Positions 30,380 through 59,669 of a stretch of DNA of 64,000 nt are shown here, one piece after another. Origin of the DNA: Coptis chinensis (taxonomy: Eukaryota > Streptophyta > Magnoliopsida > Ranunculales > Ranunculaceae); assembly GCA_015680905.1 (NCBI GenBank), contig CM027378.1, positions 43,869,001 to 43,933,000 of the forward strand, written 5' to 3'. The translations under genes and the position numbers were made by a program. How positions within the stretch are numbered: position 1 is the stretch's first letter; every line of letters starts with the position of its first letter. The notes below the pieces were generated by a model. That model ran no database searches. It worked only from the letters and a program-made list of their open reading frames with translations, and was not told where the DNA came from.

Positions 30380-30450
30380 ATTGCATTGACCATATGCAAT
30401 AAAGTCTTAAACCACTAGGAATTCCCTAGTGGACGAGTTATAGCTTCATG
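30380..30450 (-). other. Three-hairpin conserved 3' module (element M)
   Basis: Hairpin 3 is a perfect 7-bp stem ATTGCAT/ATGCAAT (30380-30400). Hairpin 2 is CCACTAGG/CCTAGTGG (30412-30432). Hairpin 1 is decayed in this copy. The order and spacing match those in N, X and A. Confidence 0.65.
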
Positions 30451-31640
30451 ATATTTTCCCAAAAAAGATATTTGCAAACTTCATTTATTCTACAACGACT
30501 AAGAAATAAAAGCAATGTTTCCCTAATTTTATCTCAGAATCTATACATCTCACTAGCAGTTAAACAATGATCATCAATCTAACTCCTAAATTAATACATG
30601 CATAATAATCAAATCATCTTAAGATAAACAACTATATAATAAACTATGCTATAAAATGTAGTGGCAGGTCTTTTTCTGAAACTTTTGGGTAGCGTGCCTA
30701 AGTAGGTACTCACAAGGAATGTGTTAAGGCATATAACACTCTGATTTTTCCACTCAAGTTTGCCAACTCCAATGTGCAGTGGGCACATGTTTTCTCACAA
30801 TCTCAATGACAATCCAAGGAAGTTGAGGTTGATCAAACACATATACCACTTACTATCACACCAACCTATTCTTAATTGAGCTAGAGGTCTTTATTAGGTG
30901 TTACGGGGATTAGGTGATGGTTTAAGAAGGAAGAAAATGGATAATCAAATTGATAAGTATGAGATAATAGGGTCTTCAAAATATGTAACTAGAGAAAACC
31001 TTGTTCTTTTTCTTTGCTTCTACACTTTGTTCCATACTTAGCCCTTTATTTTGGCTTTTGACTCCTTTTGATTCTATTTTTGGAGTTCTAATTTTTATTT
31101 TTCTTTCTTTTTGGAAGCTTTCTTTTCTTTCCTTTTTCTATTTCTATTTCTTTCGAAGCAACTAACTAATTTTTGTTTACACAGGTTTTTCTCTTATCTT
31201 TTCTTCACTCATCCTATTTCTCAGACTTATCTAGATAGATAGGCTGATTTTATTTTTTATTTTGTTTTATTGGGTAAAGGATTTGCGGTTTGTGAAAAGG
31301 CTAATGAAAGGCTCAGTGGGGTGACTAGTGTAAAATATACTTTGGTCAGAATTTCTAGCTATATCAATTTAAAGAGAGTCTAAATTCTCGCTTAGGATAT
31401 GGTATGGTGATCAAGCAAGTAGATGTGTGATTTCTCTACTCGGATTTTACTTCTCCCTTGTGTCATCACTCAGATATTTCACTCATATGAGGCTTTTGGC
31501 TAGATTCTCACAGGATATGTATTAAGTACTCTAACCTAGGTCTCAGAAAAATATTTCCAAGTACAATCATAGATGTTCATGAAAAGATGCAATGACTATT
31601 ACCTACATATTAATCCAAGTTTCAAAAATTAAATCCTAAT
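30450..31640 (-). other. Conserved 3' noncoding block (element M)
   Basis: It shares in order, with X (3950-5160) and N (50850-52190), the landmarks TTTAGGC...GGATCGATATAGCC, CCTCTAGCTCAATTAGGAATAGG, AGAACCTACTTAAGGACGC and others. No reading frame is shared, so conservation appears to be at the nucleotide level. Confidence 0.65.
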
Positions 31641-32122
31641 TCAAGTACTGCGTGAGATTTCTAAACTAATATAATCATGGAGAAGGGAACAATACCATTA
31701 TCACTAAGTGCATAGTATAAACTATATTTATGATTTTTTAAACTTTTATAAAGAAAAATGCGTAATTTACATCCTAAAAGTGCCTAATTTTTGCAAATAT
31801 TTGTATCCTACCCCCAAACAATCGAACGCTTTGTCCTCAAAATGTAAAGAGATAAGGAAAGAATTTACCATAGAAATGTGGCAAAAATTGGCAGTACCTA
31901 TAACAACAATATTATAAAGATTATATGATAACATGAAACACAATTAAATTGTTACGTACTAACTTACACAAACTTTACTGGAGTAAACATGACAACAAAG
32001 GGTGGCAAAATGTTTTAAAATGAAATACCAAAATACGCCACCTCCAAACAAAATTTGAAAACTTTTTTTAAGTTTGAAATTTTTGTGGCCTATACTCCAA
32101 AAATATGGTATTGTACAAAAAT

Positions 32123-32455: not shown

Positions 32456-32497
32456 TATCTAATATATATGTACATGTCACTTACCATATATCAACAA

Positions 32498-33878
32498 CTA
32501 AAAAAGTTGTGAGTCTTTCCATAAATAATTAATATGGAATGCACCCCTAAACTGAATCAAGCACCAAGACTTTCTACGATGCAACTTAGTGGAATGAGAG
32601 CGAGATCTGATTGACTTAGAACCTAATCGAGCGTGTACTCTCTTCTTTTTTGAACGAAAGGGTGTCCAGGTGAATGATCGTGAGAAAATGAATGGTTGTG
32701 GAAAATACTTGAAATGTGGATAAGTGTTAGAAGGATAGTGTGGGAAGAATAATTGGATTCTATGAGGGATTAGCTCAGGTGGATCGTGGTCGGGTGGTGC
32801 TCTAGGTAGTGCTTGAGAGGGTGGATTATCACAGGCTCTTAGAAACTCATAGAATTCCTTATCTAGCTTGGTTGCATCCATATAATTATGGTATTCATCT
32901 GCATCTTTGAGAAATTCATCAATCTCGTCCAAAAAGTTGAAATTGTGATCTTTGTCTTCTTCCATAATAGGGGTATCTACTAGTGTGAGGACGAAAATGT
33001 CTGTCGTACTAATGTGAGATACAAAACTCTCAATGGACTTCACTTCTCCTTCTACACGCAAACCTAGTTGTCCCTGCTTGAGTCTAAACATGTTAACCTC
33101 TACAAAAAAATTCCAAAGAAAAGAGTCATTGAGCCATCCCAACAACTAATTTGGGCATTGGCGGTTGCCAAGAAAGGATGATGGGAATAGAATTATGCAC
33201 AACTTCTATGTCGAGAATAATGAAGTCGACTGGGTAGTAAAAGTCTTGAACTTTGACAAGAATATTTTCAACTACGCCCTTGTGATACTTAATAAAACGA
33301 TCATCTAACTGCAAAGTCATTTTGGTTGGTTTAAATTCATGGAGACCTAGTTGTTTATATAAATAAAATGGGAGTAAGTTAACACTTGCACCCAGGTCTA
33401 ATAACACAGTTGTCAAATTTCGTTATGTTCAGATAAATAGGGATATTGTTTAGTTAAAAAGGTTTCATTAGGTATGATGACTTTCCTCTTCTTTGTGCAC
33501 AACTCTTTTAGATACTTAGCGTGTCTAGGTAGACTTTTAAAGCATCTAGAAAATGTAGGTTTATAGTCAGATTTCTAAACACTTTCCTAATCTCATCAAA
33601 ATTCTTGTCCTTTTTAGACACAACTAGTCTCTTGGGATATATGGTGATTAATCTCTATATTTAGCATAAGGGACAACAATATTATTAGGTTTTGCTTTAT
33701 CTTTAGCCACTTTCCATCTAGGTGTCCATATTAGAACATCTACAAGTGTAGGACTTTCAATTTCTATGATAGTATTTGGTATGGTTTTGTTCTCAGCTTC
33801 CGTTTGTGGGTGATCTTCAGGCATAGTCATTTTGTTATCAACTACTTTTCCTGAACGAAGGTTAATGGTTGCCTGCAA
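32498..33878 (-). pseudogene. Element M: end of Gag, retropepsin and post-protease region
   Basis: Read on the minus strand, 33878-33648 carries the Gag-end signature INLRSGKVVDNK. 33416-33126 carries the retropepsin core LLDLGASVNLLPFYLYKQLG, with the catalytic Asp in DLGA. 33145-32498 carries an acidic segment (EFLKDADEYHN...EFYEFLRACDN), then a Pro-rich and basic segment. The same order occurs in N (44700-46423). No polymerase or integrase domain follows before the noncoding block. It is a fossil with several breaks. Confidence 0.7.
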
Positions 33879-33980
33879 TTCCCCTGGGGTTATATTACCA
33901 TTACACTAAATACTATTTATTTTGAAGGCGGCATTTGTTGACTTAGGATTAGGCACTACTTAACCTGGAAACACGCTTGT

Positions 33981-34612
33981 TGATAAGTGCTCAAAAGTAA
34001 TGATTTATAACCCCAATAATGTGTATGTTAGTCTCAATTTTATATTTAAATATTCTAATATAATACAATTTGAGTTTTTGTAGGTCAAAGAACCTAAATA
34101 TGAAATATGGAGGGAAAAGAAGTCAAACAAGTCAAAAAGGAGTCACTGGGAATTACAGCTAAAAGCCTAGGGCAAAAATGTCCTATTTGTCTCCATAAGT
34201 GTCAAGCCTAATGGAACTCTAAAAGAGGATAATAATTGAGTTAGAAGAGTCTTCAATCTGATCTCAAAGCCATAATTTCGACTTCATAGGAAGATGAGAT
34301 CAACATGGAAAAGAAGTCAGAGTTTCACAAGAATTAGGAAACTGAAAGCTGTTAGAAGCTGCAGCTTGGGAAATAGCCTGCAGGGCAAAGTGGGCCACGT
34401 CCAACTTTGGTCCAACCGAATTTAACTTTTCCAGGATTGCTTCTAGAAAGATTATAGAGAGTTTGACACCAAATAAACATAGGATTCGGATCTCTATCCA
34501 GACGAGCTTGTAAGCCTATATATAAGGCACAAAAATCTCAGTTAACATCATCTAGGAAATTTAGTGTTTGCATCTTAGATCTAGAATTAAGAGAGAAGAA
34601 AGTTCAGACCTT
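33981..34612 (+). repeat. Truncated LTR of the left A unit
   Basis: It aligns without length change to 35995-36626. It then jumps directly to the A 3' internal sequence (homologous to 58293 onward), with 2-3 shared bases (CTT) at the join. It starts TGATAAGTGCTCAAAAG right next to M gag sequence. Confidence 0.9.
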
Positions 34613-35994
34613 GAGCCTTTCAATTTTAATTTCTTGGAGAGTCTTTACGTAAATCTGAGTCCAAGTTGACTCAACCATTTTTCAGTGCTTAAATTCGTTA
34701 TGTAGTCTCATTTATTCTTGATTTGGTCAATCACGAGGTGGCATCAACTGGGGAGATAGCCATTAGGTCTTGTAGTCTATTCAAAGCGGAATATCATACT
34801 GATAAGTCAAGTAGTGAACCAATCAGCCTTTATCCCACCTAGTAGGATTATCATGTTAACCACTTTTGAGCCTTATATATTAAACCTTTTATTCTTAAAC
34901 CAATCATCTTAAACCCAGCTCCAGATAAGGAGTATATCCCATATTATTAACCTTATCCATATTTCTGAGGATTTTTAAAGAACTAAAGAGAAAATTAGAA
35001 CGAAGAAGATTTTGAAGGAAATTTTACCAAAGTCAAATGAAGAAAATCATTCCTTTTGCTCAAAGGAAAAGAAAAAGACAAAAAAAAGAAAAAAAAAAGA
35101 AAAGAAAAAAGAAATATAAATAATTGAGTAAAAGTAGTGATAGAGTTCAAGTGTTACAGTCTACAAGTGAAGAAAATTTCCAAGAAGGTCAAACGCACAA
35201 AGTCTTTAGTATATTCTCTGAAATTTTTGAATCTTTTTACCCTTTTTCTTGTTAACTTTCCCCTAAAGCCCTGTTTTAATACCCAGACTTATCACTAAAG
35301 TATGATATGAAGTTTAGAATAGGTGAGAGGATGCTAAAGTGAAGGACCCGACACTTCAAATGTGATTGACATTCTTTCCATGAGACTTTATTTATATATT
35401 TGCAAATTTCTGTCTTTCTGACTAAATATGTGGGATGTTCTACTTTTTACTCATTTCCCTGCATATGGAGGTAAAATAGAAAACTTATCTGAGAGAGATT
35501 TCCTTGTGAGTGTATGAAATGGTGAGATTTGAAGTCAAAATACTAATCCAAAGGTGAGGTAGCAATTCCATTGCTTGGAAAAGAGAAAAGAATCAAAATG
35601 GTTAAAAATGAATAAGCTCTAGTTAGGATGATTAGTAAGTCTTTTCTATCTTTATGAATAGAACCTTAGCCTAATGTTTTATCATCATGGGTGTGAGAAG
35701 TAATAACCTTTTGATTTAGACATTTTAACTGAAAAAGTTGTTTTCTCTAGATTTCACCATAGTTCATATGTAAAATTGATTTTGTGGGTATATCAACTGA
35801 AAACCCTCACGAGGCTATAACTCGTCCTTTAAGGGTAACTTAAAGGTTTAAGGCCTTGTTGCATATGATAAATGCAACCGCGATGCCTGCGAAAGTGAGT
35901 TAGTTTATTATTTAATTAGTATTGTTAGCTTTGAACACTTCTCTAGTATACCAAATATTTGCTAAGAGACTAGCAAAATGCTAGTTGGGGGTTG
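34610..35994 (+). other. 3' internal piece of the left A unit
   Basis: It is near-identical to 58293-59669. It includes the three-hairpin module (35809-35878), the pre-LTR hairpin TTTGCTA/TAGCAAA (35958-35977) and the polypurine tract AGTTGGGGGTTG abutting the LTR at 35995. There is no coding region. An A/G-rich low-complexity stretch lies at about 35062-35115. Confidence 0.85.
35809..35878 (+). other. Three-hairpin conserved 3' module (element A, left copy)
   Basis: Hairpin 1 is ACGAG/CTCGT (35809-35825). Hairpin 2 is CCTTTAAG/CTTAAAGG (35826-35846). Hairpin 3 is GTTGCAT/ATGCAAC (35858-35878). Arm and loop lengths equal those in N although the hairpin 2 stem sequence differs, which indicates compensatory change. 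Confidence 0.75.
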
Positions 35995-37519
35995 TGATAA
36001 GTGCTCAAAAGTAATGATTTATAACCCCAATAATGTGTATGTTAGTCTCAATTTTATATTTAAATATTCTAATATGATGCAATTTGAGTTTTTGTAGGTC
36101 AAAGAACCTAAATATGAAATATGGAGGGAAAATAAGTCAAACAAGTCAAAAAGGAGTCACTGGGAATTACAACTAAAGGCCTAGGGCAAAAATGTCATAT
36201 TTGTCTCCATAAGTGCCAAGCCTAATGGGACTCTAAAAGAGGATAATAATTGAGTTAGAAGAGTCTTCAATCTGATCTCAAAGCCTTAATTTCGACTTCA
36301 TAAAAAGATGAGATCAACATGGAAAAGAAGTCAGAGTTTCACAAGAATTAGGAAACTGAAAGCTGTCAGATGCTGCAGCTTGGGAAATAGCCTGCAGGGC
36401 AAAATGGGCCACGTCTAACTTTGGTCCAACCGAATTTAACTTTTCCATAATTGCTTCTAGAAAGATTACAGAGAGTTTGACACCAAATAAACATAGGATT
36501 CGGATCTCTATCTAGACGAGCATGTAAGCCAATATATAAGGCACAAAAATCTCAGTTTACATCATCTACAAAATTTAGTGTTTGCATCTTAGATCTAGAA
36601 TTAAGAGAGAAGAAAGTTCAGACCTTTTCACCATTAATAGCTTTAAAGATTATTCCTTTTCATATTGTGTTCATAGCATTGTATGAGGGGCTAATCTCCC
36701 TTCTCTTGGGAGGGGAGATGAAGCCTTTTTCGTATGTTTTAGTTTAGTTCTTCTTCTATCATATTTTAGTTTAAATCCCTCATTGAGTTTCTTCTTATTC
36801 GTCCACTGATCTAACGCTCTTGTGGAGGTTAGGAGGTCTTAGGGTAATTCAAGATTGTGTAGAGCCAAATACCACAAACCCTAGATTCTTTTCTTCTAGT
36901 TTTTAGTGTTCTAGTGTGATGATTGGATTCTTTATGGCACCTCAATTAGTTGTATGGTTAATGCCACATGTGGATTTTCCATGGCACCTAGAGTTGTATA
37001 TTTAATGCCACTTAAAGCACAATTTGGTTTGATAGAAGATATCATTGGAGATTGAAGAAGTATTTGATGGAAAGATAGAAAGCACATTGAAAGCCACATA
37101 TTATTATCATAGTTATGAGCATAAGGTTTGTAGGTATGGTGAGTTTCTATTAGTGATTTATATTAAGCATGATAGATAGATCTATTAGACTAATTCTATG
37201 ATTTTGGTGGATTCATCTCTCTCAAGATATTCTTTCTCTTGATTCATATTCATATATTTAAATTAGTTTATTTTATGCATAGTTTAAATCTCAAATCAAA
37301 TCAATTATATATTTATCATTACTTAGCCACATCTTTTACTTGCATCTATTAGAGTAACTTAGATTAGGAAATTCTATCATCATCACTTAATTATTTAGAG
37401 TAGGATTGATACCTTGCTAGCCACTATACTAATCAATATTTAATAGTCTAAGTAAGATTTGCAAAAGATACGTAACACAAACAACGACATAAATAATTAC
37501 GTGTTGCATGCTTTTTTCA
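35995..37519 (+). repeat. Shared LTR of the A tandem
   Basis: It is 1525 bp, begins TGATAAGTGCTC and ends TTTTTTCA. A polypurine tract lies on its left and a primer site on its right. It therefore served as 3' LTR of the left unit and 5' LTR of the right unit. Confidence 0.9.
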
Positions 37520-37520
37520 A

Positions 37521-41217: not shown

Positions 41218-42626
41218 TGATAAGAGCCCAAAACTGTAGTTTTAACCCCTTAATAATCATACTGTTAGACCAATTATGTGAATAATAAGTAAGAGTTAAC
41301 ACTGATTACGCGTTTTTATGCATTTCAGGCTTCAAAGTCCATTATGTGCAGAAATGTACCACTTTAGCGAGATAAAGGAGCAAAAGTCAGCAGAACTTCC
41401 GAATACCATATTTTTGGACTCAGACCTCGGATTGAGGCCTACCTTATGTCAAAACGACCGGCTCGGAAAGAGCTTTGCAATGGTCTAAGCCTTGACCCAA
41501 TCAGAGGAGCAGAAGTGGACGAAAAGTCTGTGGAAGCCAACTGCAGCTGAAGAGGCCTTTTTGAATTTGAAAAGAATTGGGTTTTGGGCCCGATTCTCGC
41601 CCAAAACATGGCTCCAAGCCCATGCACGATTTTTGGATCTGGATGTATAAAAACAAAAGCTTGACTCAGTGTTAATGGCAGTTAATGGTAGATGGTTAGG
41701 TTAGAAAATAGAGGTAGCTTAGAATAGAAAGTAGCCATTAAAATAGCTTCTAGATCTAGTTTTATTTAAGAGTTTTAATTAAGTTTAGTTCCATTAAAAT
41801 TATTGTATTAGATTAAACATTTGAATCTTGCTCTTAAATTTGATTAGATCAATAAAGTAGTGTTCTTTATCAATTTCGTTTTTGTCATTTACAATTTATT
41901 AGATCTAAATTCAATTCTTGTTACCATTCAATTCTTAGTTATTAATTAGATTCCATTATTGTTTCATTAAGTAAATTTCAATGCTTTATATTATGTTTAG
42001 TTTAAATTTAAATGGAAATGATTGCGGAATGATTCAAGGCTAAACCTCCATTAGAGGGGTTGAGAAACCTTGATGAAAGCTTGATTCCACCATCGGAGAT
42101 TGTCGTAGTTTCCTTTCCACTCTAGAAACGCGTTTAGTTCACCATGAGAATGGGTTTAATCGCTCACATGCTAATTATTAATTGGTAGAAATGCCATGTG
42201 TAGTTAGGGATTAGGAAGAACCGATTGTTCTCGCTTTAGCGTTTCAATTCGGATTACTTAACGACTTCGTCGCTAGTGGATTAAGTTGAGTTAAGGTGGA
42301 ATCAATCCCCTAACTCCTTATCATCGAATCAACGTAGCATTCCCTTAGTTGTCGATAATCGACTAGTTGCATTTAGGTGGGTAGTTGCACCATAGTTTAG
42401 TTGCCCCTTCAGTAAAGCTCTCATTGACTTTAAGTAGAGTATTGAGACTAGAAAACAAGCATACGGAAGGACTAAGAGTGGAACGAATCACTCTACTCCA
42501 CTATATCTCATAGGATTGAGAGTAGAAAATATCTTTGATAAGTAAGCATGAGAATAGTTGTTAGTTTACTTACGTTGTGAATTCATCACTCATTTAGGTA
42601 GGTAGACTAATCTTTTACTCTTATCA
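41218..42626 (+). repeat. 5' LTR of element N
   Basis: It is 1409 bp, near-identical to 52361-53766. The core motif TATGTCAAAACGACCGG lies about 230 bp in (near 41447-41463). A probable TATA box is GTATAAAAAC near 41645. Confidence 0.95.
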
Positions 42627-43259
42627 AATGGCCATTTCTTTGTCTTAGTTTCACTTTTGTATTGTTTTCGTAGTATTAGTACTGTTCTTAAAGTCCCATT
42701 TCACCCACCCACCCTTGTTTGATTCATACCGTGGCTATCCGATTCAATCTTATAAAAATTCGGGCAAAATTACACCGATGCCGCTACAAGCGTTCTACTT
42801 GAGCGACCATTCCCTATATTTATTGGACGAGCGACCCGCTTCCATATGGAGCGACCACCCTAAAAACACTGTAATTTGAAAATTACTCCTGAGCCGAAGC
42901 GCTTCTATCGATGGCCTTGGCCTGCGGTTAAATTTTTCGGATTTCGGCGGTTTTGATTCGAACTTTGCTCTTTCATATTTTTCGGTGTTCTAAACTGCTA
43001 TATACACCGAACAAGCGTAAACAAGACGCTTATTCATAAGCCGAAGCAAGGACGCAATCAGTATTCCTTTCTTCCACACCTCGATCTCCTCGTTAGAGGT
43101 TTTATACTAGTATATCGAATTGTTTGGAGTGTTGCATGTTTTAGTTAAGGTTCTACTTAGTCTTGCATGAGATTAAGGTCCGGTAGAACAAAAACACCAA
43201 ACGTAAATACACAACAACACCAACAAACAAATCTATCTAGTATACCACACACTACACCT

Positions 43260-44870
43260 CTAGCTACTATTTTACACACACCACCGATATAATGGGGAAG
43301 AAAGAGAGACTCCTCTCTCGACTTCTACAAAGCCTTGAGCCGATAGCCCCAAATCTTGCATCGTTCTAGCAGACCAAATGGGATTTGAGAATCCCTCCAA
43401 ATATTTTTAATTTGTTACCCGCTTTTCATGGTTTAGACCATGAAAAACCTTATCAAAGATACGCGTTAGGATTGAACAAGTCTTAACAACATTCCACCAT
43501 CCTACGGTTGGTACGGAACAAATTAAATTAAGGGTATTCCCTTTCACCTTAGCCGATAAAGGCGTCTTGGTTAACTGCCCAAGCCTAATTCTCGTGGACT
43601 CGTGGGCTAAACTTTGTTCAAATTGTTTATGGAACATTTTTACCCACCCCTAAAGACGGATGAGATGCTTTCCAAGATTCATTTCTTTTCGACAAAATCC
43701 TCATGAATCATTTTCGTGAGGCTTGGAATCGCTTCACCGATCCGCTTATAGAGTGTCCACACCATAACCTAGCAAAAGACACGTTAGTTCATGCCTTTTC
43801 AAAGGACTTCAACATCACCATAAAGAAGTCCTTGACATTATGAATGGGGTAGTTTCTTAAGTAAAGGAGCCTCGGAGGCTTATAAATTTTTAGAAGACCA
43901 AACTAAGCGAAATAATAATTGGGGGGTAGTGATGATATCCCCGGCCGCCTAGTTCTTCTTCAACAGTTAAAGGCCGCGGTATGTTTGAAATTAAACACGA
44001 TTCGAGCTTAAAACTCTAATCAAATCACTCACTAAAAGGTAGAGGCCATTTACGTACAACAAAAGCCTATCCCCGTCATGAATGTAAATTCAAATCCATG
44101 TAGTTTCATTGGAGTCCCGAAAGCATCCCGACTCCCATCGGCCCTATAGCCTATGAACAGGTTTCTTCCATTAATAGTGAACCTAACGCCTTTGAGACAA
44201 AATCCCAACTTCGGTTGGAGAAATAACCAACAAGTCACACCCCAAGGGTACAATAATCAATATGTTAGGCCGCAAAGCTTTAACCAAGCTCCACCACAAC
44301 AAGGACAGGTGGTCGTGGTAATTTTAATAATTATAACAACCAAGTGCAACCTCGACAAGGTCAAGCACAAGGTCAAGGTAATTATAATAATTATAATGCT
44401 AATAGAGGTATCGTCCCTAAAAATAATAATTATCAAAATCCACCTATAAATAATTCACGGAAATAGTTCCAAATACACCACCCGTGACTACTACACCCAC
44501 ACAACCGGATCGCCTTGACACCTTCATACAAGTGAGCCAAAAACTTTTCCAAACCATGGCTCAATCTAACCAACAGCTTCTACAATCCGTTAATAATTTA
44601 ACCCAACAGTTGGCTCAAGATAAAGCCCAAACCAAAGGTGTGTTGCCAGGTCACGCAATACCTAATCCTAAAACAACAAACACAGCCTTTGAGGTAACGG
44701 ATAATACTAGTAATGAATTTGAAAATGTAGGTGAGATAAATGCCATCACCACTCTCCGTTCTGGCAGAGTGGTTGATAACAAGGTAACTATGCCTATAGT
44801 TACCCCACCAGTAGCCCCTACACCTACTATTTTACTAGATACCGAAATAGAAACTTAAGAGCCTACCACT
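43260..44870 (+). pseudogene. Gag region of element N
   Basis: Gag-like sequence is visible in several frames. A capsid-like part lies near 43380-43760 and a Gln/Asn-rich linker near 44150-44480. The Gag end is at 44484-44858, with TTLRSGRVVDNKVTMP near 44748-44795, matching the equivalent spot in M. It is a fossil with many breaks. Confidence 0.65.
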
Positions 44871-44939
44871 GTAGAGGTACCAGTTACAACACAACCTAAG
44901 AAACAGAAAGCCACGGTTAAACATCCAGCTGATACCATA

Positions 44940-45600: not shown

Positions 45601-45611
45601 CCGATTCGTCT

Positions 45612-46423
45612 ATGGATGGAGAGGTTAGCATGATCGAGAGCTTTGCTCGAGATTATTTCAACAACACGTTCCCTGATAGTCATATGCCCAAAATTCTTTC
45701 CTTTGGAAAGTCAGACTCCAACATTTTCATCCCTACACTAGTCGATACACGTATTATTGATGAGGAAGGGATAGAGGATTTTCTCAAAGATGTAAAGGAC
45801 TACCATAGTAATGTGGATATGACCAATCTAGATGAGGAATTTGATGAGTTTCTTCGAGTAGGTGACAATTCACCCTATCAAGAACTAACTTGCACAACAT
45901 CCACCTCGACTCCCCTCCTTCCACCCTTTCAAAGGAATCTCGAGTTTGCACTCGATCCCTTTGTTTCTCCCCGGCTTCATAATTTTTAAATCCTCCTAGC
46001 AAACAGATAATTCAGAAGGACAACTATTTGACACCTTCATTTTCAGAATTGAGACAGTCCCCTACACACACAATGAATGAGTTCGGTGCTAAAACCACAT
46101 CCTCATTGTGTACAAGCTGTCTTTCTACAACTTATCCATATCCACCATATTCTCCACACCCATTCACTTTTCCACACTTATTTACTAGAACACCCACTCA
46201 TTCAAAAATTAAAAAGAAGGTGCATGATAGGTTACACAATAGGGTAATCCGACTTCCCTTTCATATCACTAGGTTGAGTCATAGGGAAAATTGGTGTTTG
46301 ATTGTGTTTGGATATGTTTTCTGTGATATTTATTTATGGAATGATCCACAACTATTTCGGTTGTTGATATATGATCAACTGCATGTCCATACATATGTTT
46401 TAGATAAAGTCTCGAGTATCTGA
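45612..46423 (+). pseudogene. Post-protease acidic/basic region of element N
   Basis: 45612-45989 holds an acidic stretch (EDFLKDVKDYHSN...EEFDEFLRVGDN). 46028-46423 holds a Pro-rich then basic stretch ending WNDPQLFRLL. The same pair of segments follows the protease in M. In an autonomous Ty3 element reverse transcriptase would be expected here, and none is present. The function is unknown. Confidence 0.6.
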
Positions 46424-46796
46424 CTATAAACGACTCAATTTCTGTGTTTGGTGCACTTCCTTTCATTTTAATATATTGGTGAGTGCACCATTAAGGTAAC
46501 CGGGCCCTCCCTATGGAGTGTGTGGCTGTAAGTACCGGATCCTAAGTCCACGGTTCACATAGTTCACGTTTTCCACTCTTGCATGTTTTTCTCGGATTTT
46601 TTAGTCATGTTTCTCTATGGTGTGAATTATGTCTTTATTGCTCATTGTTTTTCCTCCTAAAAATAAAATAAAAATATAATAATAAATAAAAATAAACATA
46701 GTAATCTAGGAAGTCTCGGGAATCTGACTTTAAAAGACCCACTGCTAAAAACAAATTTTCTAAGCTTCGTTGTAAAAAATTTGTTTGGGGGTGGGG
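46404..46796 (+). other. Conserved internal motifs A', B, A and G-rich tract (element N)
   Basis: Motif A' (GTCTCGAGTATCTGACTATA) is at 46404-46436. Motif B (CACCATTAAGGTAACC, then GAGTGTGTGGCTGTAAGTAC) is at 46482-46552. Motif A is at 46711-46742. The tract TTTGGGGGTGGGG is at 46784-46796. The tract resembles the polypurine tracts next to the LTRs and could act as an internal plus-strand priming site. Confidence 0.6.
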
Positions 46797-47299
46797 TGTT
46801 CGTGTTTCCGTAATAAATGTTTTATGTCCCATTAGAGTTGCTTAGGCTGTTTTATTGTATTACGATTCGGATTGACATAATCTATTAATTTAGAGTTCAT
46901 TCGTTCGCATAACTTACGTCATGCACGCACTTCGAGGCGTTTTCCACTATCTCGTATGTCATCCGAAGTCGGAATAGAGTGTTTTATGGATCATTGGATA
47001 GGAAATTCCCTCCTGATCATTTCCATATCTCATTCGCATAAATCGGACCGGTAACGAAGCGGGAATTTTGATTTGAAATTCGCAAAAAAATCGAAAAAAT
47101 CAAAAATTTCGATTTTGGGCTTCAACCCGCCCACGACCAAATACTGGCCCTTTTACATTCTCAACAACAGTTCATCGTTTTTCCACTCCATTCCGCCATT
47201 AACAAAGCTCAAAACCCTAACAAAAATAAAAATTAAAAAGAAATGCCATAAACTCACGCCAACCATCAAATTTCCAAGCCAAATCTCTTCTAAAACTAA

Positions 47300-48600
47300 A
47301 ACCAAACCACCTCCACCAATTTAACTCCAACAAAACCACCAAAAATTCAAAATTTGGTGTCAGCCACCACCACACCGCCACCACCACCGTTCTTTCAGTC
47401 GGTCAAGTTAAACCACCACTACCACACCCTCTACAAACCCCAAACCGTGATTCAAACTTCAAATGGCTCAACAACAACGAATCATACCGAGCAAGTTTTC
47501 ATCGCCGACCATTTCGCCCGCTTTACGGTGACGAATGGCTAGTAGAGACTGGAATAGTCTCGGTATTTCGACCGAGCCTTCTACCATGAAGACTTGGTCC
47601 GACGGTTCTACAACACCGGGAGTTGGAGGGGAGTAGGATTTTGTGATGGTAAGGAAGAAGAGAAAGGAGTTGACTATCGGTTGTTGGTCGAGATTCTAGG
47701 CATTCCGCCTAGAATCCATCCTCGAGGCCACCTTTACAGAGCCCCAGTTTGACGGGTAGAGCCCTCCGATGGGCGTGGATCGCCATCAATGGGAGCTACA
47801 ATACAAACTCCCATTGTGTACGCCAGCATCCCTCAGACCAACCAAATGGCTGACCCGGTGGATTGGTCGGAATGTCCTAGGGAAGGACAAGGTCGCTGAC
47901 ATCGGTCCGACTCGCCCATCGCAGTTATGGGTACTCCAGAGCGTAAGTAACGATTTCTGATCCCGGAGTTTTTGCCGAGAATGATCGGGGGGTCGGAAGG
48001 TCTTTGGCACCTCTTCCCCGTGTTAATCACCAAGATCATGTCAAGATGAAAGCAGCTCTCCAATGCCGAGGATTTACATTACCCCCGCACCGAACACGCC
48101 GTATCTATAGGGGTGTGTCCAACAAGTTTGGAGGAGGGCTGAGGATAGAGAAGAAGAAGAAGAAGAGGATGGAGGAGCTGAGAATGAAGAGGAGGAGGAT
48201 GAGGATGCCTCCGAGGATGAGGAGGACGGACCTGCTTTGATGCAGATGCCTTCCGAGGTGTTGGTTCGATGCGTAACGCATGGCTATGCTTCATAGGGGC
48301 ATCGCTCACTAAACACTATCTGCAGACCCTCCGGACTCGACAGCGACTATTCATCACAACTTCGAGATCCGCACCCAAAGAGAGGATGAGAGATGGGAGC
48401 AAGCGCGGGTCGAGATGGAAGCCCAGCCCAGAGAGTGGATATGCTTGCACGCTTCCCACCTCATACGCACTCTGCCCGAGGACACAAAAATTTTAGGCAT
48501 GAGCGTCGTCGACGAAGGATCGATCTGCTGGCCGGACCTTTTGGAGCCCGTGAGCCACCACTAGAGAGTGTGCCCTCCACCACCGGGGCGAAATTTGTTT
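47300..48600 (+). pseudogene. First plant-transposon-protein-like block (element N)
   Basis: The block begins with a Pro/Thr-rich start (TTTPPPPPFFQS near 47357-47395). The following part is reminiscent of the Transposase_32 (putative plant transposon protein) domain often found downstream in plant Ty3 elements. It then turns into an acidic, Glu/Asp-rich tail (about 48140-48240). It is heavily broken, and the assignment rests on similarity of layout to element A. Confidence 0.4.
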
Positions 48601-49540
48601 AGAGAGTCTGAGGATTGATAGTGGTTGTTGTTTTATTTACTTTTGTTGTGTTATTTACTTTTGTTGTTTTATTTACTTTTGTTGTTTTTATTGTAATGTA
48701 ATTTTTATTTCCGTAATTTGAATATTGTAGTGGTACTCCAAATGAAATTTTAATATAAGGGCTTATTTTCATTATGCATGGTTGTTTCATATTGACCCCA
48801 CCTTCCCAACTTGATTGGGGTGGTTTTATCAATTCAAGCATTATTTTTGTATAACCCCCTCGTGATAGAATTAATTCGGAGTCAAGGTGAAAATATGGTT
48901 GTTTAGGCAGAAATATGATTAAGTATCATTGTAGGATGAAATCTAGATTAAATAGGTACATTCTATCATAAAATCAACCTAAAAGATACTTGGGTTTGAA
49001 TTAGAATCCGTGATATGAGTTGTTTCCGCTTTCGAAGTTTGGAAATTTTAGGATTTCCTGAACCGCCCAGAATTAGTTTTGGCAACTTTCCGATCCTTTT
49101 AGCAAATTTAAACCTATATAAACTTGATACAAACTATCCTCACAACTCACACTACACCTAAACTCCATCACTCACCTTTCACACCCGCGATTCCCACGCT
49201 TCGACTTCATTTTCGCAAAATCGCAACTTCGAGCACGCCCGCCCCCCTGAGGCGCTTCTACACACTTCACGACAGAAAATTTTATCGAGCGCCCACGCTT
49301 CAGTCAAGCGACTTCGCTAAAACACCGGAATTCCAAAATACTAATAGCGCCCGCCCCTCCTTTGAGCGACTCACGCCTCTACTTATCGAATTCCAAAACA
49401 CAAAGAGCGACTTCGCCCTGGTCGGTTGAAGCCGCCGACTTGCGCGGACCAGAAATTTTCCAGTTTTCACGCCGTAGTATCCGGATCATTCGCAGCTATC
49501 CCAAAGCGTAATTTTGAGATGACATCTCCAACATTGATAC
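48601..49540 (+). other. Spacer between the two downstream blocks of N
   Basis: Near 48626-48690 a unit around TTTACTTTTGTTGT repeats about four times in tandem. The rest is noncoding-looking, apart from a short basic open frame (49124-49429) without recognised domains. Confidence 0.5.
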
Positions 49541-50455
49541 CGAACAGTCTTTTCAAGATTTGTTCCAAAGCACTACTTACGGTGCTTGGTTTCATGAGGT
49601 GATTACATATGTTGGCTGGGAACCTCTTATGGTAAGACCGGGTGAACTTTATTCTCCAAAGACTTGCATCTTATTTTTATAATAACTGCATTTTCTTTGA
49701 GAGACCGGATGGAGAACAAGTGTTCTCCATCAACATTGACGATGAACCAATGGAAATTACCGTGTTCTTGCTAGCATTTGTTCTTGGACTTGCTATGCCC
49801 ACCGAGATACAAGACCCATGGTGCTATTGGGTCGATAATATGCATGTCTACACTTATGAGTCTTTGCACGAGGCTTATGGGGCGTGGCATTTTCCGTATT
49901 GAGGACCAAGGGGACTATAACGCGTTGCCGCGGGTAGCCCTTGGCCCATGAACATAGGAACTGTTATGTTTTGGATTATGCTAAACATTTTAGGGGAATG
50001 GCGTTTTTCTTCATGAATGACGCCACTTGCGCCGTTTTCCTTTTTAGCCAATGGACGCCGGTTCTATGACCTTCCCGAACTTTGATGTCTAGTTTAGCAC
50101 GAGCCCATACCATGAGGCATAAGTACCTTCTTATGCCTGTTCTGTTCTAGTTTCACGATTATGCTATGTTTCTTTCCTGTTTTTGTACACGCTTCACGGA
50201 TTGGATTAGGGTAGACACGGTCGCGACCCACTAATAGTATTATTCGATCTTTCCGCAAAATGACTTGGCAAGGGTGGCGGATACAACCTCACCAGGTTGC
50301 ACCCTACACCCCATCAGACCAAGTGGCACTTAATAGGTTAGCAACCATAGATGATAAATGGCGTGAAGCCTGGCAAATTATCATAGCATGGCAGACGCCG
50401 AAGGAACCTCACTTCTTTATAGAAGTGGAGGATGACGAAGATGACGAATAACAGC
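49540..50455 (+). pseudogene. Second plant-transposon-protein-like block (element N)
   Basis: 49642-49902 reads an open stretch with LASYFYNNCIFFERPDG and SINIDDEPMEITVFLLAF, a Transposase_32-like pattern (aromatic FY pair, then a predicted helix beginning a folded core). 50260-50451 is a short C-terminal-like piece ending in an acidic run. It is a fossil, broken in several places. Confidence 0.45.
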
Positions 50456-50849
50456 GGGAGTGGAGGTAAGTTTTAGTTTCTGTTAGTGTCTGCTTATGTC
50501 CCAAGCAATTTCATTCTTTTAACCCCATAATGGGTAGAACTCGTATAGAGTTGAGTCAGTTTTATTTCCTATATTAGTACGTTCTAACCTTCTTTTGCAG
50601 ATGTTCCTGAATTCCACGCGTTTCAATGGTATTTTTACTACCCTCTTTATTTAAATGCTTTGAGGACAAAGCATGCTTTTTGTTTGGGGGCATAGAAACA
50701 CGTGTAATTAAGACATCTGTTAGGATATAGAAAGACATAATATGCATTGTTTTCTAGTTAAAATTTCAAAAATTTAAAAAAATATAAATAAATAAGTCAT
50801 GCTATACACTTAGGAATATTGGTATTGTTTCTTTCTCCATGCTCTTAAC

Positions 50850-51286
50850 AATCTAGAAGTCTCACATAGCTTTTGCATCAGAATAATTGTTAGAAACTTA
50901 GGTTAATATGTAGATAATAATCTTTGCATCTATCTATAAATATATTACATGAGTATCTATGATTGTTAGCAAGATAAGTTTCAAATCTAGGCTAGAGTAC
51001 TTATTCTACAAATCTGTGAGAATATAGCCTAAAGCCTTATATGAAATAAACATTTGAGAAATGACACAAGGGAGAAGTAAAATCCGGATAGAGAAATCAC
51101 ACGCCCACTTGCTTGATCACTAAACCATATCCTAAAAAAATTTAGGCCCTTTTGGATCGATATAGCCAAAATTCAAACCTATGAATTATTTTCCGCTAGT
51201 CGCCCCTTTGAGCCTTTCATTAGCCCTTCCATAAACCACAATTCCTTTACCCCATTTACAAAACAAAAAAAAAAAAAAAAATAATA

Positions 51287-51362
<76 letters not shown>

Positions 51363-52188
51363 AATCAACCTACCCAATTAAGATAAGTCTGAAAATAGAA
51401 TGAGTGAAGAAAGAAGAAGAGAAAAACCTGTGTAAACAAAAATTAGTTAGTTGCTTCAGAAAAAAAAAAAAAAAAAAGAAAAGAAGTTTCCATCCAAGGA
51501 AAAGAAAAAAAAAAGAAATAAAAAATAGAAATAAAATAAAAACTCCAAAAATAGAATAAAAGGGAGTCAAAAGCCAAAGAAAAAGAAAAAAAAATATGGC
51601 TAAGGATGGAAACAAATTGTAGAAGCAAAAGTAAATAACAAGGTTTTCTCTAGTTACATAATATGAAGACTCTATTATCTCAGACTTGTCCTTTAGAATA
51701 TCCATTTCCTTCCTTCTTAAACCATCTCCTAATCCCCGTAACACCTAATAAAGACCTCTAGCTCAATTAGGAATAGGTTAGTGTGATAGTAAGTGGCAGA
51801 TGTGTTTGATCGACTCCGCTTCCTGTGTGTCATTGAGATTGTAAGGTAAAGTGTGCCCACTGCATTAATCGGAGTAGCTAAACTTGAGTGGAAAAATCAG
51901 AGTGTTGTTTCTTGACTATTATTGTGAGAACCTACTTAAGGACGCTTATTCCGAAGTTCTCGAAAACAAACCCGCTAAACATTTTATAGTACTACTCATG
52001 GTGTATATGTTTATTGTAGATGATAGATTATTATGCATATATTAACTTAGGTTTTGACTTGGTTATTCTTGTTCATAGCTAGTGAGACGATATAGATAAT
52101 TTGGAGCATGAATAAGGAAACAATAGTTTTATTTTCTTAGTCGTTGTAGTATAGATGAAGTTTGTGAGTACCTTCATCGAAAACTCTC
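50850..52188 (+). other. Conserved 3' noncoding block (element N)
   Basis: It shares ordered landmarks with X and M, including ACTTGCTTGATCAC, TTTAGGCCCTTTTGGATCGA, CCTCTAGCTCAATTAGGAAT and GAGAACCTACTTAAGGACGC. It contains A-rich runs and the AT microsatellite. Confidence 0.7.
51295..51359. repeat. (AT)n microsatellite
   Basis: This is an AT dinucleotide run of about 65 bp directly after A-rich runs (51267-51295). Confidence 0.97.
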
Positions 52189-52258
52189 ACGAGGTTATAA
52201 CTCGTCCACTAGGGAATTCCTAGTGGTTTAAGGCCTTGTTGCATATGGTCAATGCAAT
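52189..52258 (+). other. Three-hairpin conserved 3' module (element N)
   Basis: Hairpin 1 is ACGAG/CTCGT with a 7-base loop (52189-52205). Hairpin 2 is CCACTAGG/CCTAGTGG with a 5-base loop (52206-52226). Hairpin 3 is GTTGCAT/ATGCAAT with a 7-base loop (52238-52258, closing G-U). The linker TTTAAGGCCTT is constant in X, N and A. The module lies about 100 bp upstream of the LTR. Confidence 0.75.
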
Positions 52259-52320
52259 CGCACTCAAATAAACGAGATTAGTTAGAACTCCATTTTGGTC
52301 ACTTATTCTAATTTCTCATC

Positions 52321-52360
52321 TTTGCTTGAGGACAAGCAAAATGTCGTTTTTAAGGTGGTT
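52321..52360 (+). other. Pre-LTR hairpin and purine tract (element N)
   Basis: TTTGCTTG (52321-52328), loop AGGA, CAAGCAAA (52333-52340), then a short purine-rich tract AAGGTGG before the LTR start at 52361. Confidence 0.75.
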
Positions 52361-53766
52361 TGATAAGAGTCCAAAACTGTAGTTTTAACCCCTTAATAAT
52401 CATACTGTTAGACCAATTATGTGAATAATAAGTAAGAGTTAACACTGATTATGCGTTTTTATGCATTTCAAGCTTCAAAGTCCATTATGTGCAGAAATGT
52501 ACCACTTTAGCGAGATAAAGGAGCAAAAGTCAGCAGAACTTCCGAATGCCATATTTTTGGACTCAGACCTCGGATTGAGGCCTACCTTATGTCAAAACGA
52601 CCGGCTCGGAAAGAGCTTTGCAATGGTCTAAGCCTTGACCCAATCAGAGGAGCAGAAGTTGACGAAAAGTCTGTGGAAGCCAACTGCAGCTGAAGAGGCC
52701 TTTTTGGACTGAAAGAATTGGGTTTTGGGCCTGATTCTCTGGCCCAAAACATGGCTCCAAGCCCATGCACGATTTTTGGATCTGGATGTATAAAAACAAA
52801 AGCTTGACTCAGTGTTAATGGCAGTTAATGGTAGATGGTTAGGTTAGAAAATAGAGGTAGCTTAGAATAAAAAGTAGCCATTAAAATAGCTTCTAGATCT
52901 AGTTTTATTTAAGAGTTTTAATTAAGTTTAGTTCCATTAAAATTATTGTATTAGATTAAACATTTGAATCTTGCTCTTAAATTTGATTAGATCAATAAAG
53001 TAGTGTTCTTTATCAATTTCGTTTTTGTCATTTACAATTTATTAGATCTAAATTCAATTCTTGTTACCATTCAATTCTTAGTTATTAATTAGATTCCATT
53101 ATTGTTTCATTAAGTAAATTTCAATGCTTTATATTATGTTTAGTTTAAATTTAAATGGAAATGATTGCGGAATGATTCAAGGCTAAACCTCCATTAGAGG
53201 GGGTTGAGAAATCTTGATGAAAGCTTGATTCCAATTATCGGAGATTGTCGTAGTTTCCTTTCCACTCTAGAAACGTTTAGTTCACCATGAGAATGGGTTT
53301 AATCGTTCACATGCTAATTATTAATTGGTAGAAATGCCATGTGTAGTTAGGGATTAGGAAGAACCGATTGTTCTGCTTAGCAGTTCAATTCGGATTACGA
53401 TGACTCGTCGCTAGTGGATTAAGTTGAGTTAAGGTGGAATCAATCCCCCTCTAACTCCTTATCATCGAATCAACGTAGCATTCCCTTAGTTGTCTGATAA
53501 TCGACTAGTTGCATTTCGTGGGTAGTTGCACCATAGTTTAGTTGCCCCTTCGTAAAGCTCTCATTGACTTTAAGTAGAGTATTGAGACTAGAAAACAAGC
53601 ATACGGAAGGACTAAGAGTGGAACGAATCACTCTACTCCACTATATCTCATAGGATTGAGAGTAGAAAATATCTTTGATAAGTAAGCATGAGAATAGTTG
53701 TTAGTTTACTTACGTTGTGAATTCATCACTCATTTCGTAGGTAGACTAATCTTTTTACTCTTATCA
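52361..53766 (+). repeat. 3' LTR of element N
   Basis: It is 1406 bp, near-identical to the 5' LTR, beginning TGATAAGAG and ending CTTATCA. The exact ATAGG duplication follows at 53767-53771. Confidence 0.95.
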
Positions 53767-53771
53767 ATAGG

Positions 53772-54006: not shown

Positions 54007-54051
<45 letters not shown>

Positions 54052-56464: not shown

Positions 56465-57424
56465 ATGACAGCTCGAGGACAAGTTCGCAAACAGTTGAAC
56501 ATGACGACCAAACAAAAGATTCACGCTGAACTCTGTTATGGAGAGCTATTTGATAACAATGCCATGAACGGATTTTTTAAAGAAGAATGCGAAACTCGGG
56601 GTTGGAACTGTCTATTTTATTCTAATGGAGACAAATATCATGAAGGTATTGTTCGCCGTTTCTACGACTGCAGAATCGATTATGAAGAGGTGAATGGGAA
56701 AATGAAATTGTATTGGGATAATGACTCTGAACCCACCATCATCACTCCTGATTTTCTAGTCGAAAAAATGGGAATTTCAACACACTATGGACCACAAACA
56801 AAGGCGAAACAATCATGTGATTATCGAGCCGTGCTTGGAGAAAAAGTAGAAGTAGATTCTGCAAATCGTGTCCGAGTTTGCTCCCTTCAGGTGAATCAAA
56901 TTTTGACATATCGTTGGATTTGTGATAATGTCATTGGGTCGAGTACTTTTTCTACGATCTATGAACCTGGTGGTCATATCCTATTTATATTAATGAAGAG
57001 GGATATCAAAATTTGTTTGGGAAAGACTATAATGAAGAATATTATGGAGAGGAAAAATGCAAATCATTGGTATCTCATCCTTCTAACTTTTATCACTAGG
57101 TTTTTGTGCGAGTTAGAATTATTTAGTGCAGAAATAGTTGAGGCGGAAGGAATAGAACTTAAAGAAGGACAGATTCCTAGGCAGATTTTACACTGTCCAC
57201 CTGGATTTTGGGAGCCTAGTTTATTGACAGACGAGGGTGAACCAGTTTTTGGTATGACACCAGCTCATCACGACCCTGATTCCCCACCTCCTTATTTTGA
57301 AACCACTAGTGTCTTTGATGCTCAGATGGACCCGAATGTGCGAGACATGGGTTTAACACTATTTAGGGGTATGCACAAATTGTATAATTATCAGAAAAAC
57401 AAGGAGGAGATGAATAATCAGTGA
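56465..57424 (+). CDS. Second plant-transposon-protein-like open frame (element A)
   Basis: This is an open frame of about 319 residues from the ATG at 56465 (MTARGQVRKQ). It carries HEGIVRRFYDCRIDYEEVNG, then a Trp-Asp-rich strand and TIITPDFLVEKMGIS. This repeats the layout of the first block (V-R-x-F-Y-x-C, then a helix ending in a V-E-K-M or A-R-M pattern). An acidic Pro-rich C-terminal part (HHDPDSPPPYFE) follows. It is the longest open frame in the window. Its place inside element A marks it as an element gene, not a host gene. The family match is Transposase_32-like, and the function is unknown. Confidence 0.55.
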   Translation: MTARGQVRKQLNMTTKQKIHAELCYGELFDNNAMNGFFKEECETRGWNCLFYSNGDKYHEGIVRRFYDCRIDYEEVNGKMKLYWDNDSEPTIITPDFLVEKMGISTHYGPQTKAKQSCDYRAVLGEKVEVDSANRVRVCSLQVNQILTYRWICDNVIGSSTFSTIYEPGGHILFILMKRDIKICLGKTIMKNIMERKNANHWYLILLTFITRFLCELELFSAEIVEAEGIELKEGQIPRQILHCPPGFWEPSLLTDEGEPVFGMTPAHHDPDSPPPYFETTSVFDAQMDPNVRDMGLTLFRGMHKLYNYQKNKEEMNNQ

Positions 57425-58292
57425 CATAGGGAGTTGATGGAACATATTCTTACGCTCCAGAACAACAAAGTTGAAACATCCGTTCAAAAGAGAGGTCGTC
57501 GAAAATTAAAATAGAGTCCTTTATCTAGGATTATGTATTCCAGTACTTCTTAATATGATCACTCATGTACTTGATTGTCTATTATGGTTTTATCACTCTT
57601 ATTTGTAGGCAGAGACAAATCTTGCAACAATGAAACTATTAATTTAAGTTATTATTATTAGTATTATTATTATTATTCATTGTTTAAAATTTTCAGTCAT
57701 GTCATTTGTACATGTAACTCTTACATTCTACCTCCACCTTTTTAGAGACGTATCACTCTACAGATTGAGCACATGACAAATATTTAGTCGTTGTAGTAAT
57801 TATTTATCTTTATAAATCATCACTCTTATTTGTTTTGTTAAGGATATAAATTCTACAGATTTTAGCTGATGTAATTTTGCATGCATTTAAGGTAATATCC
57901 CTCTTTTCTCTGATTATTTCAATTATGGTAAGTTTTCAGTTATTTTATTTAGTCATTAAGGACATTGCCTAATTTAGTTAGGGGGGTGAGAATTAAAATT
58001 TTGCAACATTTTAATTACAATATTTGGAAAGTTTATATGTGAATTATGGTGATTCTAGGTGAAAAGTATATTTTTATCGTTTAAACTGGCTAATGAAATA
58101 GGAAATTATAAGTCATGACCAGGATTAGTAAGACTTTTAGACTAAGTTTCTATTACTAGAAATAGATCTCACTGATAAAAGTCTTAGTCTAAAGTAAGTT
58201 CATATAATACACCACTAGAGGAATTTCAAATGAAAGAGCAACTTAAACTTCTACCAAACTAGAGGATTAGTACAGAGACTTGACCTGTGAGA
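57425..58292 (+). other. Noncoding region of element A with (ATT)n and G-rich tract
   Basis: An (ATT)n-like microsatellite lies near 57650-57677. TTAGTTAGGGGGGTGAG near 57975-57991 resembles the tract at 53892-53901 and may be a second internal purine tract. No open frame of note is present. Confidence 0.55.
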
Positions 58293-59669
58293 CTTGAGCC
58301 TTTCAATTTTAATTTTTTGGAGAGTCTTTACGTAAATCTGAGTCCAAGTTGACTCAACCTTTTTTCAGTGCTTAAATTCGTTGTGTAGTCTCATTTATTC
58401 TTGATTTGGTCAATCACGAGGTGGCATCAACTGGGGAGATAGCCATTAGGTCTTGTAGTCTATTCAAAGCGGAATATCATACTGATAAGTCAAGTAGTGA
58501 ACCAATCAGCCTTTATCCCACCTAGTAGGATTATCATGTTAACCACTTTTGAGCCTTATATATTAAACCTTTTATTCTTAAACCAATCATCTTAAACCCA
58601 ACTCCAGATAAGGAGTATATCCCATATTATTAACCTTATCCATATTTCTGAGGATTTCTAAAGAACTAAAGAGAAAGCTAGAACGAAGAAGATTTTGAAG
58701 GAAATTTTACCAAAGTCAAATGAAGAAAATCATTCCTTTTGCTCAAAGGAAAAGAAAAAGAAGAAAAGAAAAGAAAAGAAAAAAGAAATATAAATAATTG
58801 AGTAAAAGTAGTGATAGAGTTCAAGTGTTGCAGTCTACAAGTGAAAATTTTTTCCAGGAAGGTCAAAAGCACAAAGTCTTTAGTATATTCTCAGAAATTT
58901 TTGAATCCTTTTTACCCTTTTCTTGTTAACATGTCCTAAGCCCTGTTTTAATACCCAGACTTATCACTAAAGTATGATATGAAGTTTAGAATAGGTGAGA
59001 GGATGCTAAAGTGAAGGACCCAACACTTCAAATGTGATTGACATTCTTTCCATGAGACTTTATTTATATATTTGCAAATTTCCGTCTTTCTGACTAAATA
59101 TGTGGGATGTTCTACTTTTTACTCATTTCCCTGCATATGGAGGTAAAATAGAAAACTTATCTTAGAGAGATTTCCTTGTGAGTGTATGAAATGGTGAGAT
59201 TTGAAGTCAAAATACTAATCCAAAGGTGAGGTAGAAATTTAGATTTGCTTGGAAAAGAGAAAAAAAGATCAAAATGGTTAAAATGAATAAGCTCTAGTTA
59301 GGATGATTAGTAAGTCTTTTCTATCTTTATGAATAGAACCTTAGCCTAATGTTTTATGATCATGGGTGTGATAAGTAATAACCTTTTGATTTAGACATTT
59401 TAACTGAAAAAGTTGTTTTCTCTAGATTTCACCATAGTTCATATGTAAAATTGATTTTGTGGGTATATCAACTGAAAACCCTCACGAGGCTATAACTCGT
59501 CCTTTAAGGGTAACTTAAAGGTTTAAGGCCTTGTTGCATATGGTAAATGCAACCGCGATGCCTGCGAAAGTGAGTTAGTTTATTATTTAATTAGTATTGT
59601 TAGCTTTGAACACTTCTCTAGTATACCACATATTTGCTAAGAGACTAGCAAAATGCTAGTTGGGGGTTG
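58293..59669 (+). other. 3' internal end of the right A unit
   Basis: It is near-identical to 34610-35994. It includes the three-hairpin module at 59484-59553, the pre-LTR hairpin TTTGCTA/TAGCAAA (59633-59652) and the polypurine tract AGTTGGGGGTTG before the LTR at 59670. Confidence 0.85.

Follow-up and report, generated by a model that had tools for sequence, protein, structure and literature searches.

The nested long terminal repeat (LTR) retrotransposons in a 64-kb stretch of the Coptis chinensis genome (contig CM027378.1, positions 43,869,001 to 43,933,000; hereafter the window, from a genome of 935.6 Mb in 116 contigs) raise the question of why elements of different families carry the same short module ahead of their 3' LTRs. 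A sequence-only reading of the window had described this module as three hairpins with compensatory stem changes, in the order hairpin 1, hairpin 2, linker and hairpin 3. Here we report that hairpins 2 and 3 covary in an alignment of copies chosen to span the families, and that the module is probably a conserved RNA structure. The chances are about even that it is a cis-acting structured 3' RNA domain common to pol-less Athila-like families, which would serve their replication in trans.

Five copies of a three-hairpin module lie in the window

The five copies were found where the sequence-only reading had placed them, except that the copy in element M (30380–30449, minus strand) is one base shorter than claimed. 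The remaining copies, all on the plus strand, belong to X (5160–5229), to N (52189–52258) and to element A, which has one copy within a tandem partial element (A1; 35809–35878) and another at its own 3' end (A2; 59484–59553). In N, hairpin 1 spans 52189–52205, hairpin 2 52206–52226, the linker 52227–52237, and hairpin 3 with its closing pair 52238–52258. The hairpin-1 motif, allowing up to three mismatches, matches the window exactly five times versus 0.16 expected, and the modules end 102–117 bp before the start of the LTR. Using blastn at E ≤ 1e-10, we found that nothing in N but the module (~100 bp) aligns with element A.

The internal details of the earlier description also held. In all five copies hairpin 2 consists of an 8-bp stem with a 5-base loop; X, N and both A copies share the linker TTTAAGGCCTT, which in M is changed to TTTAAGACTTT; and the closing pair of hairpin 3 is G-U in N, G-C in A and A-U in M, with G-U in X as well. 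The hairpin-2 pairs said to have changed together amount to three full pair swaps between N and A (A-U to U-A, C-G to U-A and G-C to A-U). Mismatches that had gone unmentioned are C.A in hairpin 1 and A.A in hairpin 3 of X, and A.C in hairpin 1 of M. M looks like a decayed copy, since its linker is absent from all 20 other fetched copies that share its hairpin-1 changes.

The module recurs in at least five families of one genome

The hairpin-1 motif ACGAGGNTNNAACTCGTCC had 6,621 exact matches in the genome (3,328 + 3,293) versus one for a reversed-pattern control. An A-type hairpin-2 pattern matched 149 times, and a pattern for other hairpin-2 loops (C/D-type) 242 times; a loop of the type found in family C2, described below, was seen in many of these 242 matches. 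A fourth hairpin near the LTR, searched in a form with both bases of the seventh pair changed, returned 1,673 matches. From these, 20 loci were fetched; 18 carried the module upstream, and through them families B, C and D came to light, and the two with no recognisable module (L252 and L255) were excluded. The module frame is common to at least five sequence families, main, A, B, C and D, with the stem of hairpin 1 retained while its loop varies in length and sequence. All compared copies come from this one genome, the fetched loci mostly from contig C1, and their alignment held 153 rows, or 150 unique rows after three duplicates were merged. Family B, L161 included, accounts for 13 of the 150.

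In searches for homologues elsewhere, which covered no other plant genome, two specific patterns had no match and genome contigs gave none either, and 108 stretches drawn from the viral contigs by a loose pattern were taken for chance. In one subfamily (L110, L111, L127, L128, L136 and L138) the linker reads GGTTCAAGGCC (GGTTCAAAGCC in L128). This form, which is not kept in other families, resembles a B box of RNA polymerase III promoters.

Hairpins 2 and 3 covary in a family-level alignment

Covariation was evaluated in an alignment of 16 rows, chosen by eye to span the families, with L113, L122 and L260 picked for their hairpin-2 variants. Hairpins 1–3 were paired in 93.8% of 320 cells versus 89.1 ± 0.8% when the 3' letters were shuffled, the covariation score was 0.237 versus 0.153, and 20 cells versus 10.0 had changed on both sides; each of these values was reached by 0 of 500 shuffles. 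The doubly changed pairs are pairs 3, 4 and 7 of hairpin 2 and pairs 3 and 6 of hairpin 3 (numbered without the closing pair). When partners were slid along the alignment, only 28–45% of cells paired. The same rows were also scanned without a prior structure, a 7-bp segment passing if at least 90% of its cells were paired and at least three were doubly changed. Only 2 of 3,486 segments passed, and these were hairpins 2 and 3. Among 1000 column permutations, any passing segment arose in 8.8%, two or more in 1.6%, and one equally strong in none. Both hairpins still passed without L113, L122 and L260 (13 rows; best segment 0.000) and with 9 rows (best segment 0.001). Hairpin 1 is kept, but without covariation.

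A pairing test against a tree-based null on the 150 unique copies gave p = 0.001 for hairpin 2, p = 0.001 for hairpin 4, p = 0.014 for a stem upstream of hairpin 1, p = 0.039 for hairpin 3 and p = 0.062 for an extended stem. Hairpin 4, the upstream stem and the extended stem are described in the next section. When single pairs were compared with column pairs of similar variability, the covariation of hairpin-3 pair 6 was matched by at most 1 of 2,242 controls and its pairing by 23%. Pairing was matched by 4.2% of controls for hairpin-2 pair 3, 3.3% for pair 4 and 19.5% for pair 7, and by 4.6% for hairpin-4 pair 7; hairpin-3 pairs 3 and 4 paired no better than their controls.

Several results weigh against a conserved structure. 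In the 16 rows, the number of pairs with a change on both sides (five) was reached by 185 of 500 shuffles. RNAalifold drew hairpins 1 and 2 but replaced hairpin 3 with a different pairing. With 5 rows only hairpin 3 passed the scan (best 0.010, count 0.205) and hairpin 2 failed. Among the 150 copies, hairpin 1 (p = 0.139) and the closing pair of hairpin 3 (p = 0.236) had no significant signal in the pairing test, and an all-pairs score with the tree null put no column pair below E = 1, a result to be read knowing that few families mean few independent events. Genome counts at hairpin-2 pair 7 of the main family were 5,685 G-C, 315 G.T, 142 A.C and 13 A-T; the 13 compare with 8.3 expected under independence (Fisher p = 0.10), a null result for compensation within the family. 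We take the copies of the main family to be mostly dead, and this lack would be expected if selection acts solely on a few active source elements, although it is still not evidence for structure. Mismatches are fixed in some families, at pair 3 in C (A.A or A.G), pair 5 in D (U.U) and pairs 6–7 in B in hairpin 2, which in B pairs without a break in only the lower five of eight positions.

Folding energies are similarly divided. The five window modules had RNA folding z-scores of -3.73 (X), -1.97 (M), -3.42 (A1), -2.88 (A2) and -3.40 (N), and in the comparison across families the scores were clearly low for N (-3.28), L110 (-4.26), X (-2.58), A1 (-3.64) and L241 (-3.61). They were weak, which again counts against a conserved structure, for B (-1.0 and -1.2), C (-0.7), C2 (-1.4), D (-1.1 and -2.5), six extra copies (L259–L264; +0.1 to -2.0), L122 (-1.4) and M (-1.7). 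As most copies of B, C and D fold with ordinary energy, the shape has been retained more firmly than its stability. On the sequence-only reading's own test, a deeper alignment, selection for structure stands for hairpins 2 and 3 at the level of families; it does not stand on the all-pairs tree test or the copy counts of the main family, and some families keep fixed mismatches.

The negative all-pairs test would suit a stretch conserved as sequence, for example as a protein-binding site, in which the inverted repeats are minor and the apparent paired changes go back to a handful of ancient events on deep branches. The near invariance of the hairpin-1 arms, much of the linker and several hairpin-3 positions also fits such a stretch, as does the persistence of family B with hairpin-2 pairs 6–7 unpaired. 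An unbiased scan would not, however, be expected to single out hairpins 2 and 3, and the full pair swaps, two in hairpin 3 (main versus C) in addition to the three in hairpin 2, speak for pairing. We therefore consider conservation as sequence alone unlikely, and a conserved RNA structure probable.

Further candidate pairings flank and join the hairpins

A fourth hairpin, missed by the sequence-only reading, lies directly before the polypurine tract as TTTGCTTG-AGGA-CAAGCAAA. It occupies 5298–5317 (+) in X, upstream of the polypurine tract and an LTR that starts at 5336, 30297–30316 (-) in M, 35958–35977 (+) in A1 and 52321–52340 (+) in N. The A version, TTTGCTA-AGAGAC-TAGCAAA (stem TTTGCTA/TAGCAAA), has one pair swapped relative to the main type. 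Six pairs, TTTGCT-loop-AGCAAA, are the same in three family types, and the seventh is U-A in main, X, M and N, A-U in A and B, and a C.U mismatch in C and D. At another element 3' end in the window (6275–6391), hairpin 4 is altered and of hairpin 3 just the right half is present.

Hairpin 4 and its neighbours could set the context of the polypurine tract for a correct RNase H primer cut, the upstream hairpins insulating the site. In most copies hairpin 4 stops about 20 nt short of the LTR, which would suit this role, as would a seventh pair that varies among otherwise constant ones and a hairpin that does well in the pairing test. Hairpins 1–3, however, sit 100–190 bp before the LTR, beyond what a polypurine tract is known to need, and N retains its hairpins despite an altered purine tract, so that we hold this role improbable as the explanation of the module.

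Upstream of hairpin 1 is a stem of the form GTGRGT/ACY..CAC. In N (52164–52190, +) it pairs GTGAGT at 52164–52169 with ACTCTCAC at 52183–52190, the final two bases of which overlap hairpin 1. The fourth place of the stem is A-U or G-C in 14 of 16 rows and is the one pair at which it covaries; this R-Y pair was matched by 0 of 911 control column pairs. Part of the co-change travelled as a block, as the recombinant family C2 shows, and it may hence represent a single event. A pseudoknot candidate joins G[C/G]C of the linker to G[G/C]U of the hairpin-3 loop through three pairs, with 93.8% of cells paired and one double change. Alone it is insignificant, an equally good 3-bp segment arising in 12.9% of column permutations.

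An extended stem, in which the 5' arm of hairpin 1 pairs with the linker (ACGAG/CTTGT), was initially taken as the true structure because each of the five window modules, folded alone, includes it in its best fold and because it fits the changes in M. As the family-wide form it was rejected: it has no covariation, the observed value being no better than any of 500 shuffles, and the linker changes in M are unshared by the 20 copies having its hairpin-1 changes. Hairpin 1 is better than the extended stem by 2.8–5.4 kcal/mol in B, C and D, and the extended stem is better by 0.4–1.3 kcal/mol in N, A1 and L110. It may form as an alternative state. Cyclisation with the 5' leader was also rejected, since in N 98 of 100 shuffles were at least as good and the best run in A is AT-rich (7 of 100). 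By eye, the loops of hairpins 2 and 3 contain no palindrome that all families share.

The window elements match gag and protease but not pol

Element N (41218–53766, +) is a complete insertion with LTRs 97% identical, the target duplication ATAGG on both sides, and gag-protease remnants. It is located inside element A (about 35995–60814, +; right-hand LTR ends uncertain), which comprises a 5' LTR, gag-protease, PF20167-like open reading frames (ORFs), the module and a 3' LTR. The LTRs of element A share 96.5% identity across 1,154 aligned bases, and it has no clear target duplication. A1 and A2 represent one family, as the two 3' ends of a single tandem arrangement, and the partial element that carries A1 (33981–35994, +) is a partial copy of the 3' end of element A. 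The arrangement (33981–37139 and 58290–60814), in which a tandem partial copy consisting of an LTR fragment and 3' internal region precedes the 5' LTR of element A, looks as if it came from unequal recombination.

ORFs of element A matched Retrotrans_gag (PF03732; E = 9.9e-9) and aspartic protease (PF13650; E = 5.8e-9), with weaker gag-protease or protease remnants in N and M; such matches indicate an LTR element, not Athila specifically. Two further ORFs of element A weakly resembled PF20167, the Athila extra ORF (E = 1.5e-4 and 2.4e-4), scoring ~22 bits where the curated cut-off is 45. This domain is reported, in the passages cited, in the extra ORF of a sunflower Athila (PMC11728184). All 33 window ORFs of at least 95 aa and six shorter ones lacked a match to reverse transcriptase or integrase, although shorter broken pieces may remain. 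These 39 ORFs bear out the non-autonomous context proposed earlier. We use the name Athila-like rather than Athila because no reverse transcriptase was found to put on a tree and pol-less members are known; the assignment would rest on the gag-protease and weak PF20167 matches.

Other features of these elements and their surroundings were noted. Beyond the protease, M (32501–33145, -) and N (45983–46420, +) have in common a stretch of protein, 50.7% over 67 aligned positions, that has no Pfam match at E ≤ 1. The LTRs of N start with TGATAAGAG and end with CTCTTATCA, a long terminal inverted repeat, and N contains a self-complementary simple repeat at 51295–51365, apparently TA-rich. Elsewhere in the window are an open frame of 260 aa without a clear Pfam family (7631–8410, -) and tandem arrays at 16515–18339, 19156–19427 and 22894–23032, with periods of about 55/110, 56/114 and 32 bp.

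The 3' noncoding position and the array of hairpins would also fit a module that acts in the export, stability or translation of unspliced RNA, comparable to a constitutive transport element or a 3' translation element, and 84 of 90 loci have no forward-frame ORF of at least 90 aa in the 1.5 kb upstream of the module. L112, unlike other loci, has a 242-aa open frame far upstream of the module. Rfam gave no matches in the window at gathering scores and none in 52100–52420, which contains the module of N, at E ≤ 1; this is weak evidence against such a role, as the library may lack plant elements of this kind. We judge this role improbable, to the same degree as that of a polypurine-tract context.

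Recombination has joined two of the families

Recombination between families, rather than selection, could keep the modules alike through exchange of 3' ends. One clear recombinant family, C2 (L257 and L262; two copies, compared with L243, L261 and main), is of the main type to the left of hairpin 1 and of the C type to the right. Its left part (37 columns) has a mean identity of 0.86–0.88 to main versus 0.75–0.78 to C, and its right part (97 columns) an identity of 0.90–0.93 to C versus 0.72–0.73 to main. Recombination among Athila elements is also known in Arabidopsis, according to the passages cited (PMC2410132). Exchange would homogenise neighbouring sequence too, yet N and A align over the module only, and paired changes are not expected from it; as the cause of the likeness, recombination appears slighter still than the roles in priming or export. 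Because C2 joins main-type and C-type sequence, it suggests instead that RNAs from more than one family come together during reverse transcription or in one particle.

That the repeats work as DNA, in a cruciform or as single-strand hairpins, is very improbable: in most copies the two strands fold comparably well, but the closing pair of hairpin 3 is G-U in 70 of 150 rows versus A.C in one, and hairpin-2 pair 7 has the excess of G.T over A.C given above, although this excess could stem from a founder subfamily. This tolerance of G-U pairs only hints at RNA rather than DNA, and the G.T excess would suit either RNA pairing or one G.T founder subfamily such as L122–L125.

The module as a possible handle for helper recognition

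Elements that need proteins from elsewhere and keep their own cis-acting sequences provide the nearest precedents. In the passages cited, yeast Ty3 supplied with its proteins in trans still requires its own 5' end and nucleotides 4980–5052, part of the 3' untranslated region (UTR) (PMC11381356, PMC4974528). The likeness lies in a short 3' stretch required under trans supply and in a structured RNA genome; the Ty3 3' UTR further holds two primer-tRNA-binding segments, and we claim no sequence relation. Arabidopsis Athila elements are described in the parts cited as mostly without pol and as presumably mobilised in trans (Marco and Marin 2008, PMC2410132). They resemble the families described here in gag-protease genes or remnants, long LTRs, lack of pol and inter-family recombination; a structured 3' module is absent from those passages, and the lineage here lacks a reverse-transcriptase tree. 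The weakly PF20167-like ORFs of element A recall the extra ORF of the sunflower Athila, in the sections cited (PMC11728184). BARE2 of barley, which lacks gag and is packaged in trans, is likewise a non-autonomous plant element said to retain dimerisation and packaging signals, but it belongs to the Copia superfamily and the location of its signals is unstated in the passages cited (PMC3735527). Diaspora of soybean is an Athila-clade element with a polypurine tract abutting its 3' LTR; unlike the elements here it encodes gag-pol, has just 128 bp from pol to the polypurine tract, and has no RNA structure mentioned in the passages cited, where the term 'secondary structure' has no occurrence (PMC1142308).

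The literature searched, which covered few subscription papers, gave no description of the module by title or abstract, and a term search of the main text of a 2025 paper on new structured RNA classes in plants found no mention of transposons (PMC12218528). Structured cis-acting regions of LTR retrotransposons are already known as a kind; what would be new is one notable for its 3' place, its copy number and its sharing among diverged families.

As the module lies just ahead of the 3' LTR of pol-less elements, and given the Ty3 and Arabidopsis Athila precedents, our favoured explanation, for and against which we see the balance as even, is that it marks genomic RNA for a helper. The domain would run from the upstream stem through hairpin 1, hairpin 2, the linker and hairpin 3 and, 60–80 nt on, to hairpin 4 beside the polypurine tract. 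The helper machinery, either the nucleocapsid of Gag or the reverse transcriptase/RNase H at the polypurine tract, would recognise through it the RNA of elements unable to copy themselves, and we infer that families share the module because this machinery must recognise it. The step most likely served would be selection of genomic RNA, by packaging or dimer formation, and next a correct plus-strand start. Packaging or dimerisation as the use of the structure is a tentative assignment that we think somewhat less likely than its alternatives taken together. Packaging, dimerisation, export and priming would be indistinguishable at the level of sequence. More speculative, and in our estimation rather unlikely, is the specific proposal that a compact RNA domain of ~100 nt with a linker-to-loop pseudoknot is the common pass of diverged pol-less Athila-like families into the particles of one helper. 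If true, shared entry into particles would also account for recombinant families with a breakpoint in the module.

A short structured handle that diverged families have in common, present in thousands of copies, would provide a concrete sequence with which to probe how helpers recognise plant elements without pol. It would also be a marker by which families of helpers and clients could be sought in other plants.

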